Shown here piece by piece: positions 9,779 to 14,528 of a DNA stretch of 64,000 bases (positions are counted from its first letter, which is position 1; each line of letters begins with the position of its first letter). The notes below the pieces were generated by a model. It did no database searches. It was not told where the DNA came from and saw only the letters and a list, made by a program, of their open reading frames with translations. Origin of the DNA: Salinilacihabitans rarus. Lineage in GTDB: Archaea > Halobacteriota > Halobacteria > Halobacteriales > Natrialbaceae. A program made the translations under genes and the position numbers. The stretch lies in NCBI RefSeq assembly GCF_024296665.1, contig NZ_CP100762.1, positions 2,728,001 to 2,792,000 on the forward strand. The letters are read 5' to 3'.

Positions 9779-10768
9779 ATGACGGACGCCAATCCCCCTC
9801 CACGGGCCGACCGGGCGGACCGCTCGTCGTCGCTCGACCCGCTGCCGGTGTCGGCGGTCTCGGAACTCTGCGAGGAGATCCGGACGAACGTCGGGCGCGT
9901 GATCGTCGGTCACGACGAGGCGATCGACCACGTCCTGACGACGATCCTCGGGCGCGGCCACGTCCTGCTCGACGACGTCCCCGGCGTCGGCAAGACGATG
10001 CTCGCGCGCTCGATCGCACGTTCGATCGACTGTAGCTTCCGGCGGGTCCAGTTTACGCCCGACCTCCTGCCCTCCGACGTCACCGGCGTCAACGTCTTCG
10101 ACCAGCGGACCCGCGAGTTCGAGTTCCAGCCGGGTCCCGTCTTCGCGAACGTCGTGCTGGGCGACGAGATCAACCGCGCGCCGCCGAAGACCCAGTCGGC
10201 GCTGCTCGAGGCGATGGAGGAGCGACAGGTGACAGTCGACGGCGAGACCCACGAGTTGCCGGACCCGTTCACGGTCATCGCGACCCAGAACGCCGTCGAA
10301 CCCAACCGGACGTACGAACTGCCGTTTGCCGAACTCGACCGGTTCACGAAGAAACTCCACCTCGGCTACCCCGACCCCGCCGACGAGGCCGACATGCTCG
10401 CGCGGACGGTCGGCCACCACCCGATCGAGTCGCTCGAACCGGTCACCGACGTCGAGTCGATCGTCCGCGCCCGCGAGGCCGTCGCCGAGGTGACCGTCCG
10501 CGAACCCGTCCGCGAGTACGCGACGCGGCTCGCCGGCTACACCCGCGAGCACGCCCGGATCGGCGCGAGCCCCCGCGGCACCATCGCGCTGTTGCGGGTG
10601 GCCCAGGCCCGGGCCGTCCTCGAAGGACGCGACTACGTCACCCCCGACGACGTCCAGTACGAGGCGCCGCTGGCGCTGAGCCACCGCGTCCGGACGGGGT
10701 CGAGCGCGGCCGAGCGCGACGGCACCGCGGTCGTCGAGGACGCCCTCGATCGCGTCCCGGTCGAGTAG
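9779..10768 (+). CDS. MoxR-family AAA ATPase
   Basis: This 329-residue ATPase has Walker A GVGKTML near residue 67, Walker B VLGDEINRAPPKTQ near residue 123 and the sensor region VIATQNAVEPNRTYELP near residue 165, matching the MoxR/RavA group. Such ATPases act as chaperones for partner VWA, DUF58 or protease-like proteins. It is followed at once by DUF58 and transglutaminase genes, the standard MoxR operon. A TATA-like CTTATTCAC at 9764-9772 lies very close to this ATG, so translation could instead begin at the in-frame GTG at 9848; I keep the longer form. Confidence 0.92.
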   Translation: MTDANPPPRADRADRSSSLDPLPVSAVSELCEEIRTNVGRVIVGHDEAIDHVLTTILGRGHVLLDDVPGVGKTMLARSIARSIDCSFRRVQFTPDLLPSDVTGVNVFDQRTREFEFQPGPVFANVVLGDEINRAPPKTQSALLEAMEERQVTVDGETHELPDPFTVIATQNAVEPNRTYELPFAELDRFTKKLHLGYPDPADEADMLARTVGHHPIESLEPVTDVESIVRAREAVAEVTVREPVREYATRLAGYTREHARIGASPRGTIALLRVAQARAVLEGRDYVTPDDVQYEAPLALSHRVRTGSSAAERDGTAVVEDALDRVPVE

Positions 10769-10769
10769 C

Positions 10770-11807
10770 ATGCGGCTCACGACTCGCGGCCTGGGCGCCG
10801 TCGCCGTCGTCGCCTTCGCCGTCGTGATGGCGGCGGCGTTCGGCGCACGGGCGCTGAACGGCCTCGTCGTCCCGCTGCTCGTCGCGCTGGCGGGCGCTGT
10901 CGTCTCCGTCGCCCGGACCGACGGCCCCACCGTCGGACGCCGCCCGGTCGAGGCGGGGTTCCCCGGCGAGCGCCGGACCGTCGAGGTGACAGTCGAGACC
11001 GACTCGCCGACCGCCGCCAGCGTCGCGGACGCCGTCGGCGACGGCCTGTCGGCGCCGGAGACCCGCGTCGAGACGACGCTCGACGAGGGGACGACCTACG
11101 AGTACGACCTGCGACTCGACTCGCGTGGCGAACGCCGGGTCGGCCCGCTCTCGGTCGTCGTCACGGACGTGCTCGGACTCGTCGAGCAGCGCTTCGAGGA
11201 CGGCCGGACGACGCCCGTGCTCGTCTACCCACGGGTCTACGACCTCCGCGGCGGGGCCGGCTACGACCTGCGGTTGCTCACCGACGAAGTCCGGGAGGGC
11301 GACCGCGAGGAGTTCGACTACCTCCGGGAGTACCGGCGCGGCGACGCGCTCCGGGACGTCCACTGGAAGTCGGCGGCCAAGCGCGTCGACGACGAACTCG
11401 TCGTCAAGGAGTTCGTCGCCGACGAGACCGTCGGCTCGACCATGATCGCCGTCGAACCGGCGCCGCGAGGCGACGAGGAGGAACTCCTCGCGGCCGCCGC
11501 CAGCGTCGCGCGGTACCTGCTCGAACGGGAGGTCGCCGTCGGCCTGCTCGTCGCCGGCGACTCGCTGCCGCCCGACACCGGCGACCGCCACCGCCACGAA
11601 CTCCTGCGCACGCTCGCGCTCGCCGACCTCGCGCCGCTCGACGAGCGCGACCGGCGCCGGGCGGACGTCGTGATCCACGCCGGCGCCGGCGGCGCCGCGG
11701 TCGACGTCGGCGGCCGCGAGATCCCGTTCGACCGCCTCCGCGGCGACCCGGTCGAGGCGGCCGCGCTCGGCGCCGACGGCAGTGACGCGTCGGAGGTGGT
11801 CGCGTGA
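10770..11807 (+). CDS. DUF58 domain-containing protein
   Basis: This 345-residue protein has two N-terminal membrane segments (residues 5-50), then an extracytoplasmic-like beta-rich region, then the DUF58 signature REEFDYLREYRRGDALRD near residue 177, continuing VHWKSAAKR. DUF58 is a VWA-like fold found next to MoxR ATPases. It follows moxR by one base and its stop overlaps a GTG (GTGA). That stop lies inside a 19-bp direct repeat, discussed with the 11791-11874 element. The role in envelope or protein maturation is inferred from the operon only. Confidence 0.9.
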   Translation: MRLTTRGLGAVAVVAFAVVMAAAFGARALNGLVVPLLVALAGAVVSVARTDGPTVGRRPVEAGFPGERRTVEVTVETDSPTAASVADAVGDGLSAPETRVETTLDEGTTYEYDLRLDSRGERRVGPLSVVVTDVLGLVEQRFEDGRTTPVLVYPRVYDLRGGAGYDLRLLTDEVREGDREEFDYLREYRRGDALRDVHWKSAAKRVDDELVVKEFVADETVGSTMIAVEPAPRGDEEELLAAAASVARYLLEREVAVGLLVAGDSLPPDTGDRHRHELLRTLALADLAPLDERDRRRADVVIHAGAGGAAVDVGGREIPFDRLRGDPVEAAALGADGSDASEVVA

Positions 11808-11874
11808 GCGAGCCCTGCGAGCGAACGCGAGTACGCCAGCGCGACGCGCTGGAGCCGGAGGTGGTCGCGTGAGC
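11791..11874 (+). repeat. 19-bp direct repeat duplicating a GTGA stop-start junction
   Basis: The same 19 bases occur at 11791-11809 and 11856-11874. Each copy holds ...GTCGCGTGAGC, that is, a GTG start overlapped by a TGA stop. The first copy ends the DUF58 gene, the second starts the transglutaminase gene. Between them a 22-codon frame (11804-11872) begins in copy 1 and ends in copy 2 with the same terminal residues VVA. The spacer is rich in GCGAGCGAACGCGAG-type sequence. Confidence 0.8.
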
Positions 11875-14166
11875 ACGCGGACGCGCTCGTGGACCGTCTC
11901 GACGAGCCTCGACGGGGTCGTCGGGCCGCGGGCGTTCCGGGCGCTCGCGCTCGCGGCCGTGGCGATCCTGCTCGCGTCGGTCGTCTCCGTCCTCCTCGAG
12001 GTCACCCGCGTCGTCGGCGGGTCGCAGGCGCTGATCTCGCTCGTCGCCCTCGCGGTGGCGGTGGCGACGGTCCTCGCGCGGACGATCCGGCCCCGCTCGG
12101 CGACCGCGCTCGCGACGGCCGCGGCGCTGGTCGGCTTCGCCTACTACTTCGAGGCGGCGGGCGTCGGGATCGGCACCGCGCTTTCGGCCACGGACCAGCT
12201 CCTCTCGGACACGATCGCGCTCGCGACCGGCCTGCCGCTGGACCGGATGGTCGAGGCGGGGGTCTGGACGCTCGGCTTCGCCCCGGGGCCGGCGTTCCTC
12301 TCGTGGTACCTCGCGATCCGGCGGCGCTACGCGCTGGCGGTCGTCCCCGGCGGCGCGGCCCTGCTGTTTCTCGTGCTCACGGGGGACGCGGCCCTCGGGC
12401 CGACCGTCATCGGCACCGTCGGCGGCGTCGCCGCGGTCGGCTTCGGCGAACTCGAACGCCGGGAGGGGTCGATCGCCCAGGCGGACCTGCTTGCGCTGCT
12501 GTTCGCGGCGACGGTCGTCCTCTCGCTGTCGGTCACGCTCGTCCCCGGCGGCGCGGCCCAGCCGACGATCCTCGTCTCCGACGACGACGCCGGCGACGGC
12601 ACCCTCGAAGGGAGCATCGACGCCGCGCCCGACCGCTCGGCGATCGCCGGCGACGTCGAGTTGACCCCGGAGGTCCGTTTCACGATCCGCTCGGAGCGGG
12701 AGTCCTACTGGCGAACCGGCGTCTACGACCGGTTCACCGGCGACGCGTGGGTGCGCACGGGGCAGGCGGCCCCCTACGCCGACGGCCGCCTCGACGAGCC
12801 GCCGGGCGAGTACGAGACGGTCCGCCAGACGGTGACCGTCGAGGAGGGCGTCGAGACGATGCCGGCCGCGCCCCAGCCGGTCGCGATCGAGGGCGAGATC
12901 ACCGGGAACACCGAGGTCACCACCCACGGGCAGGTCAGACCCGCCTCGCCGTTGATCCGGGGCGACACGTACAACGTCGAGAGCGCGGTCGTCGACGCCC
13001 GCCCGGCCGAACTCCGCGCCGCCGGCACCGACTACCCCGAGGAGGTCGAGTCGCGGTACCTGCAGACGCCCGAGACGACCTCCGGCGAGTTCGAGGCCGC
13101 GACGGCCGGGGTGGTCGACGGCGCCGACACCCCTTACGACAAGGCCGCGACGATCGAGCGCCACCTCCGGACGTCGAACGGCTACTCGCTCTCGGTCGAC
13201 CGTCCGGACGGCAACGTCGCCGAGGCGTTCCTCTTCGAGATGGAGGAGGGCTACTGCGTCTACTTCGCGACGACGATGGTCCAGATGCTGCGCGCCGAGG
13301 GCGTCCCGGCGCGGTACGTCACGGGCTACACGAGCGGCCAGCAGGTCGACGACGGCACGTGGGTCGTCCGCGGGCTCGACGCTCACGCGTGGGTCGAGGT
13401 CTACTTCCCCGACCACGGCTGGGTCGCGTTCGATCCGACGCCCGCCGACACCCGCAACGAGGTCCACGCCGACCGCCTCGAAGACGCCCGCGAGGCCGGC
13501 GAGGAGAACGTCGACACCGAGGAAAGCGAGGGCGTGCCGGTCGACGGCCCCGGCGCGAGCGACGACGAGTTCGGAACGGACGAGATAGACGGGACCGGCC
13601 CCACGCTGCGCCCCGACGAGGACGTGGACCCGCGCAACACCTCCCCCGGCGAGGGGACGGACGGCCCGACGATCCCCCGCGAGGACCCGCTGAGCGGCGA
13701 CCCGGACGCGGGGGGCGGCGCGCCCGGCGACGCGGACGACGGCGGGGAGACGACCCCCACGCCGGCGGACGCCGTCGTCGCGTTCGCGCTGGTCGTCGGC
13801 CTCGCCGCGGGCGTCCACCGGGCCGGCGTGACCGCGCTCGTCGGGCGCGAGGCGCGCCTCTACTGGCAGGGGTTCCGGGGTGACCCCGAGGCGGACGTCG
13901 AGCGGGCCTACCGACGGCTCGAACTGCTGCTCGAACGGCGCTACCGGCCGCGGCGGGAGTCCGAGTCGGTCCGGCAGTACCTGAGGACGCTGTCGCGGTA
14001 CCGGTCGTTCGACGACGAGGCCGTCCGCGTCGGCCGCCTCTACGAGCGCGCCCGCTACGGCGACGGCGTCGACCGCGAGGCGGCCGACGAGGCGATCGCC
14101 ACCGTCGACGCGCTCGTCCGGTCGCGGCTCCCCGCCGTCGGCCGGTTCTGGCGCCGATCCTCGTAA
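11869..14166 (+). CDS. Transglutaminase-domain membrane protein
   Basis: This 765-residue protein starts at GTG 11869 (STRTRSWTVSTSLDG). About six membrane segments occupy residues 20-230. An outside-facing region follows, with a transglutaminase-like core carrying Cys in GYCVYFATTMVQML (near residue 463), His in LDAHAWVEVYF (near 505) and Asp in WVAFDPTP (near 520), so the catalytic triad is intact. An acidic Gly/Pro-rich linker, one more membrane segment (near 640) and a cytosolic DUF4129-like tail complete it. This is the third gene of the MoxR/DUF58 operon. Substrate unknown. Confidence 0.9.
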   Translation: MSTRTRSWTVSTSLDGVVGPRAFRALALAAVAILLASVVSVLLEVTRVVGGSQALISLVALAVAVATVLARTIRPRSATALATAAALVGFAYYFEAAGVGIGTALSATDQLLSDTIALATGLPLDRMVEAGVWTLGFAPGPAFLSWYLAIRRRYALAVVPGGAALLFLVLTGDAALGPTVIGTVGGVAAVGFGELERREGSIAQADLLALLFAATVVLSLSVTLVPGGAAQPTILVSDDDAGDGTLEGSIDAAPDRSAIAGDVELTPEVRFTIRSERESYWRTGVYDRFTGDAWVRTGQAAPYADGRLDEPPGEYETVRQTVTVEEGVETMPAAPQPVAIEGEITGNTEVTTHGQVRPASPLIRGDTYNVESAVVDARPAELRAAGTDYPEEVESRYLQTPETTSGEFEAATAGVVDGADTPYDKAATIERHLRTSNGYSLSVDRPDGNVAEAFLFEMEEGYCVYFATTMVQMLRAEGVPARYVTGYTSGQQVDDGTWVVRGLDAHAWVEVYFPDHGWVAFDPTPADTRNEVHADRLEDAREAGEENVDTEESEGVPVDGPGASDDEFGTDEIDGTGPTLRPDEDVDPRNTSPGEGTDGPTIPREDPLSGDPDAGGGAPGDADDGGETTPTPADAVVAFALVVGLAAGVHRAGVTALVGREARLYWQGFRGDPEADVERAYRRLELLLERRYRPRRESESVRQYLRTLSRYRSFDDEAVRVGRLYERARYGDGVDREAADEAIATVDALVRSRLPAVGRFWRRSS

Positions 14167-14234: not shown

Positions 14235-14528
14235 ATGTCGGAAGTCTGCTCGACGTGCGGGCTGCCCGAAGAGCTCTGCGTCTGCGAGGACGTGGCCAAG
14301 GGGCAACAACAACTCAACATCCGCATTGACGAGCGCAGATACGGTAAGGAAGTAACGATCATCGAAGGATTCGATCCGAAGGACGTCGACCTCGACAGCC
14401 TCTCGTCGGATCTCAAGTCCAAGTTCGCCTGTGGCGGCACCGTCGAGGACAGCCACATCGAGCTTCAGGGCAACCACCGCGGACGCATCGAAGAGTTCCT
14501 TCGGGACCGCGGCTTCAACGTCGCCTGA
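14235..14528 (+). CDS. Translation initiation factor aIF1 (SUI1)
   Basis: This 97-residue SUI1-family factor has a zinc-binding-like N-terminus [13 protein letters not shown] (residues 5-17), then the conserved [18 protein letters not shown] and [16 protein letters not shown] stretches. Length and order match archaeal aIF1. The factor binds the small ribosomal subunit near the P site and helps start-codon selection. It has its own TATA box and appears monocistronic. Confidence 0.96.

Follow-up and report, generated by a model that had tools for sequence, protein, structure and literature searches.

The closest described system to the arrangement reported here is termination-reinitiation coupling (Huber et al. 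2019, PMC6728339; 2023, PMC10666635). In the portions of those two papers available to us, it likewise involves RTGA overlaps, an internal Shine-Dalgarno (SD) motif and haloarchaeal hosts, and the gene pairs often encode subunits of a complex, as they do here. However, those portions treat direct overlaps, whereas the element described in this study, called the relay element below, splits the coupling into at least two steps by way of a structured micro-cistron. The same sources give some idea of how much distance such coupling tolerates. For one H. volcanii gene pair a 13-nt gap costs 60% of reinitiation and a 22-nt gap all of it, and two other gene pairs show near zero reinitiation at 23 nt (PMC10666635, available portion), while SD motifs make a variable contribution (PMC6728339, available portion). 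Two groups of dispersed repeats are also comparable. Rickettsia palindromic elements are, like the relay element, small palindromic repeats that keep frames open, but according to the part of PMC10969869 available to us they fuse in frame inside ORFs and encode a conserved peptide, whereas the relay element bridges two ORFs and has no conserved peptide frame, its size classes reading the core in different frames. REP elements, which are associated with RAYT transposases, are short dispersed hairpins that sometimes form arrays, as here (PMC3733652, available portion). Compared with REP elements as that portion describes them, relay elements lack the tag GTAG and have GTAC or variants instead (alignment A5, below), occur in few copies per genome, and are found at coupled junctions only and in sense orientation.

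The window analysed in this study is a 64,000-nucleotide stretch of the Salinilacihabitans rarus genome (3.62 Mb, a single contig), the only genome of its genus among those compared. The ATPase, DUF58 and transglutaminase genes and the parts of the junction described here are on the plus strand. A MoxR-type AAA ATPase gene (9779..10768; Pfam AAA_3, 1.2e-61) is followed by a DUF58 gene (10770..11807; an ORF with a Pfam PF01882 match at 9.1e-10), whose stop TGA lies within a GTGA, and then by a transglutaminase-like gene (11869..14166; Pfam TgpA_N, Transglut_core and DUF4129) that starts within a second GTGA. A SUI1-type translation initiation factor gene is located just 3' of the latter, at 14235-14528. 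A preliminary description of this junction had reported a 19-bp direct repeat carrying GTGA and a 22-codon frame running from the GTGA that ends DUF58 to the one that starts the transglutaminase gene, and both are present exactly as described. The repeat, CGGAGGTGGTCGCGTGAGC, occurs in two exact copies whose starts are 65 bp apart: copy 1 (11791..11809) contains an SD, the DUF58 stop and the relay start, and copy 2 (11856..11874) contains an SD, the relay stop and the transglutaminase start, with GGAGGTG a few bases 5' of each GTGA. The frame between them (11804..11872, GTG to TGA; MSEPCERTRVRQRDALEPEVVA, 22 aa) overlaps each neighbour by 4 nt, so that a 4-nt stop-start overlap is present at every link of the junction. 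The transglutaminase frame has its GTG at 11869, yet it is open through the spacer back to a GTG at 11782. Because of this, automatic annotation may assign the transglutaminase a false N-terminus (11782-14166).

Comparison with relatives indicates that the 65 bp are an insertion. Of the 125 genomes of the taxonomic family, 121 have a DUF58 match, the window genome counted, and among the 120 relatives in this set the end of the DUF58 gene was read in 68. As the preliminary description had expected of relatives, 65 of these 68 have a plain 4-nt RTGA overlap between DUF58 and the next gene, and none carries the insert. The exceptions are G013, in which ATGA is present and no long downstream frame was found, G032, in which the next gene starts 5 nt before the DUF58 stop, and G122, in which it starts 7 nt after. 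In most relatives the next gene begins MST or VST, like the window gene after copy 2, and copy 2 is therefore the ancestral start. A search of the relatives' DUF58 junctions with the covariance model R2 (below) found no strong element, only matches of 25.8 bits (L287) and 20.0 bits (L057). The former (L287:110-180) is a stem-1-like match over a plain DUF58-transglutaminase junction and the coding start after it, and is probably due to chance. A separate, pattern-based search for DUF58 relatives in genome contigs returned 267 stretches, none of which was confirmed as a relative.

The insert is not confined to this locus. When the junction was compared with its own genome by BLAST, a second site with the same layout and a related spacer was found (E 1.1e-8). 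This second element (L002:1503-1570, minus strand; genome C1:1230888-1230955) belongs to a 50-bp class and lies between a thiolase gene and its OB-fold partner, with MSAANATTPEPVPEVVA as its relay. The window genome has exactly two occurrences of the 17-mer GCGAACGCGASTACGCC, each of them within a double junction, and another 17-mer, GCGAACGCGAGTACGCC, from the window spacer is identical in a unit of G085. A strict repeat pattern matched in 2 of the 125 family genomes. A looser double-junction pattern, whose gap range the window unit misses by one base, matched at 35 places in 18 of 392 genomes of the order (14 of 95 genera); read backwards as a control, it gave no matches in the 392 genomes. 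The spacers recovered with the double-junction pattern share one core and a palindrome. Two covariance models were built, both of which exclude the window unit. R1, made from 15 units of 59 bp, scores the window unit at 66.2 bits. At an E value of 0.01 it matched 57 of the 125 family genomes (23 of 29 genera), with exactly two matches in the window genome, and at 1e-4 it matched 108 of the 392 order genomes (45 of 95 genera); in a sample of the phylum, all of the 14 genomes matched out of 294 were from the same order. R2, made from 60 units and including the upstream arm, matched 54 of the 125 family genomes. It scores the window unit at 82.5 bits (11792..11872, E 4.8e-20), which marks the extent of the whole relay element and is the sole strong R2 match inside the window. 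Both models favour junction copies because both include the two RTGA ends. The best spacer match of the window unit is in L109 (94% over 36 nt), a likeness that is no proof of transfer. The named genomes with related elements are haloarchaea, for example Halovivax asiaticus and Halostella pelagica, hosts from the families Natrialbaceae and Natronoarchaeaceae.

Several other searches gave negative results. Rfam 15 had no match up to E 1 in window positions 11700-12000, and in eight element loci its only matches were a tRNA and an sRNA below threshold, neither of them at the element. The exact core pattern, the one pattern used on viral contigs, had no matches there, and a phage or virus origin was rejected. 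Two bacterial stretches (L133 and L136, among 11 stretches) had no model match and were set aside as chance. No sigma-70-type promoter or T-run terminator was seen in a scan not designed for archaea. A literature search that included sequence strings and reached few subscription journals found no description of the relay element in the text it covered.

The reading frame of the relay was examined by following 120 element loci, mostly the best-scoring ones, from the upstream stop through the overlapping starts. Eight of these form a genus-specific group that was counted apart, and the main count is 112 loci, of which 100 are unbroken gene-relay-gene chains. Of the other 12, 8 have no chain, 1 has no upstream ORF and 3 are in-frame extensions; the script had given 101 relays and 2 extensions, and L074 was reassigned by hand to the extensions. 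Twenty-eight of the 112 match the double-junction pattern, and outside that pattern 73 of 84 loci are relays. Stop-to-stop distances in the relays are mainly 59 (62 loci), 50 (23) and 65 bp (4). The window unit (L115) is an unbroken chain with RTGA at both ends and a distance of 65, and other 65-bp units exist (L119 and L120). As read from the sequences, units of the 50-bp class are shorter by 8 bases in hairpin 1 and by one base in the hairpin 2 loop, so that phase is kept, though the core is read in another frame. By the script's criterion, 48 of 49 units of 59 nt have an open relay frame, while frame +1 is open in none and frame +2 in 26. A crude spacing scan, in which some wrong junctions were picked and which therefore serves as supporting evidence only, placed 83, 14 and 7 units at lengths of 2, 0 and 1 mod 3, respectively. 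It is the reading frame that is kept, and not the peptide.

The element is found at more than 20 gene pairs, and the proteins downstream of it fall into 23 clusters, in 22 of which a relay occurs. The most frequent hosts are thiolase/OB-fold (54 loci), LeuC/LeuD (10) and L18e/L13 (5), and others are ATPase C/F, GcvPA/GcvPB, ETF, PhnL/PhnM and PTS IIA/HPr; where a partner in these pairs was not itself searched against a library, it is presumably the protein named. A DUF58/transglutaminase pair in another family also hosts the element (L074:1510-1573, in G415), with a 60-bp spacing that produces an in-frame N-terminal extension and not a relay. Tandem arrays of 2, 3 and 5 relays occur. One thiolase-OB junction contains five tandem 59-bp units (L127:1501-1799, in G037), and Natribaculum breve has three tandem 50-bp units (L132). 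In genus g2, eight loci (L168-L175, from G002, G003 and G004) have a similar two-hairpin fold in intergenic positions, without the relay context and with no coupled downstream gene with an SD. This repeat has about 11-12 model matches per genome in G002 and G004 and may represent a separate use of the two-hairpin fold.

The structure of the element was assessed in alignment A5, which consists of 60 units of 63 nt with 12 upstream bases; it excludes duplicates, units that differ in length, and L210, L213 and L214, which have no 5' RTGA. Two hairpins are supported by covariation in these 60 units from other loci. In the window, hairpin 1 (11800..11830) is visible in the MFE fold and joins a left arm, UCGCGU (11800-11805), which takes in the G and U of the relay GTG, to a right arm, ACGCGA (11825-11830), with GA/GA steps inside. 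Hairpin 2 (11836..11852), CCAGCGC-GAC-GCGCTGG, is present in the MFE fold of a 100-nt stretch. In the alignment, stem 1 pairs the spacer arm AYGCGA with six bases round the relay start (TCGC followed by R and T from RTG). In it 93.6% of cells are paired, and five of the six pairs have changes on both sides, including an A-U to G-C exchange at the start codon's first base. Variants of stem 1 change together, as in TTGC/GCAA, TCGA/TCGA and TCTC/GAGA. A pairing of the spacer arm with copy 2 instead of copy 1 was also considered and was rejected, at 78.9% against 93.6%. Hairpin 2 has 96.5% of cells paired and 58 both-side changes, compared to 15.9 in shuffles (60 units). For the combined 18-pair structure in the 60 units, 94.4% of cells are paired and 13 pairs have both-side changes; the 123 double changes compare with 32.3 in shuffles (0/500), which make no correction for the relatedness by descent of the alignment rows. 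Sliding the partner columns by 1 to 3 reduces pairing to 31-43%.

Some finer features of the fold can be described. GA/GA steps lie between the stems of hairpin 1, and in a few units Watson-Crick pairs replace one step, as seen in the fold of L158 from a LeuC-LeuD junction. Columns 45 and 63 of A5, beside the foot of hairpin 2, usually have G opposite A or A opposite G; judged by eye and uncounted, the two sides of this mismatch seem to change together, though exceptions occur. Stem 1 has 31 G.U cells to 6 A.C cells and stem 2 has 19 to 10, in rows that are not independent. The G.U excess points to a sense RNA, single-stranded DNA being another possible source. Energy folding of the window unit was no better than shuffles (z of -0.93 for 100 nt and -0.53 for 78 nt), and seven other units gave z values of -1.62 to -3.57. 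The foot of hairpin 2 usually adjoins the downstream SD, as in the common 59-bp class, and this is not required of all members. Six extra bases lie between hairpin 2 and the SD in the window unit, where hairpin 2 does not directly abut the SD, and masking of the SD is not seen there for that reason. In leader-type regulation, SD-masking hairpins, which contact the SD downstream of them, are opened when a short leader frame that runs through them is translated. The relay element would differ from those in its position between cistrons and in being fed by reinitiation, as proposed here.

The thiolase-OB junction gives some indication of how the element arrives. Among 30 loci, the genes overlap by 4 nt in 18 and by 1 nt in 5, and the element is present in 6; the one remaining locus is a known array that was misparsed by the script. 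Within a single genus this junction is empty in G018 and filled in G019, and both repeat copies of G019 have the local variant GATCGA, which would be expected had insertion duplicated the junction itself. The two copies do not stay alike. Copy 1 is not TCGC in 26 of the 60 units, and copy 2 agrees with it in 8 of them; copy 1 is TCGC in the other 34, and copy 2 is TCGC in 15 of those. Given this low agreement, copy 2 drifts. The direct repeat is the way in which relay elements sit in a junction. Possible routes of insertion are recombination at the junction motif, transposition of a single-stranded hairpin, and guide-like pairing with the target.

These results favour one reading over several others. 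The preliminary description attributed the spacer to a local duplication of the stop-start junction, and the perfect 19-bp repeat together with the simple overlap in relatives would fit that origin if the spacer diverged later. However, spacers homologous to this one occur in many genera, at over 20 other gene pairs (up to 94% identity over 36 nt in L109; GCGAACGCGAGTACGCC in G085), and the window spacer matches the family models and has the two covarying hairpins. The homologous spacers already refute a local origin, which is left with very little probability. Chance recurrence of a common SD-stop-start consensus deserves even less, near to none. Junctions like GGAGGTG..RTGA are frequent in these genomes, but the backward-pattern control found nothing in 392 genomes, the spacer and structure fit the family, and the model scores refute it. 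The arrangement of repeats is not chance, because the layout with a related spacer recurs in the window genome and the models match. If the spacer were an N-terminal extension of the transglutaminase from an upstream start, the frame open from GTG 11782 would be accounted for, and the 60-bp element of L074 does form such an extension. This is improbable for the window, since 65 of the 68 relatives start at RTGA, most with the MST or VST found at copy 2, and copy 2 supplies GTG 11869 with an SD of its own. That these junctions encode a conserved, functional small protein of 17-22 residues is a shade less probable again. It would agree with the open frames, the conserved start and stop and recurrent ends such as EVVA, but the 50-bp and 59-bp classes read one core differently (MSxANASTP... 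versus MSERxERMRVRQ...), and changes follow base pairing. Many genera sharing the spacer and frame had been proposed as the sign of an old small gene. At the window locus no such sharing was found, whereas the family shows it elsewhere, and occurrence of the family in many genera does not imply that a small protein is conserved, since the frame in which the core is read varies with size class.

The rival that comes closest holds that the element is a purely selfish REP- or RPE-like palindromic repeat that moved as single-stranded hairpin DNA, with the complementarity of its spacer arm to the junction serving as a guide to the target. The relay would then be tolerated and not useful, because only copies that keep coupling survive. 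Dispersal over more than 20 gene pairs, tandem arrays, patchiness within genera (G018 empty and G019 filled) and a target complementary to the spacer arm all favour it. On the other hand, the window genome has just 2 copies, the copies are nearly always in sense orientation at coupled junctions, intergenic copies are few outside one genus, and the sense strand has a G.U excess, although single-stranded DNA could also yield the latter. We consider a purely selfish repeat possible, at somewhat below even odds; it is nested in the best explanation and differs from it on function only.

That best explanation, to which we assign a probability of roughly 0.8, is that the 65-bp insert is a lineage insertion of a dispersed haloarchaeal two-hairpin relay element at a coupled RTGA junction. 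The insertion, the family membership, the paired structure and the constraint on frame over many gene pairs come directly from the computations. From the layout of the junction, the following path can be proposed. Having terminated on DUF58, a ribosome would start again at the overlapping GTG and translate the 22 codons across both hairpins; at the second GTGA it would terminate once more and then reinitiate for the transglutaminase gene. In the element, hairpin 1 covers both the stop of the upstream gene and the start codon of the relay, hairpin 2 usually ends at the SD of the next gene, and the spacer is an open micro-frame in the phase that leads to the next RTGA. Of the two-step coupling in the preliminary description, the frame from GTGA to GTGA stands, and coupling could be kept through it; we infer the use of the relay by ribosomes, and likewise the way the element spreads. 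By analogy with H. volcanii, in which 22-nt gaps abolish reinitiation, a 65-bp insert without a relay should uncouple the genes, and the relay probably preserves coupling. The simplest means of doing so is an open frame with a new RTGA at its end, and the need to keep coupling would explain the phase of the relay frame. As a hypothesis drawn from the sequences, the hairpins may gate or tune reinitiation.

More tentatively, and with rather less than an even chance of being right, relay elements could be an undescribed class of haloarchaeal cis-acting RNA that colonises coupled junctions and replaces one-step reinitiation by a relay, with the hairpins gating the stop-start site and the next SD, and with the element and its tandem copy number setting the ratio of downstream to upstream yield. 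If this is true, the element would act as a mobile dial that sets subunit stoichiometry. The junctions connect two topics usually treated apart, dispersed palindromic repeats and translational coupling, and show a route by which an operon can take up DNA while its genes stay coupled. Gene finders may miss the micro-cistrons at relay junctions or wrongly fuse them. About 100 natural junctions vary in relay length, hairpins and copy number, many of them at one gene pair, and archaeal reinitiation efficiency and subunit ratios are therefore testable with existing two-reporter systems.
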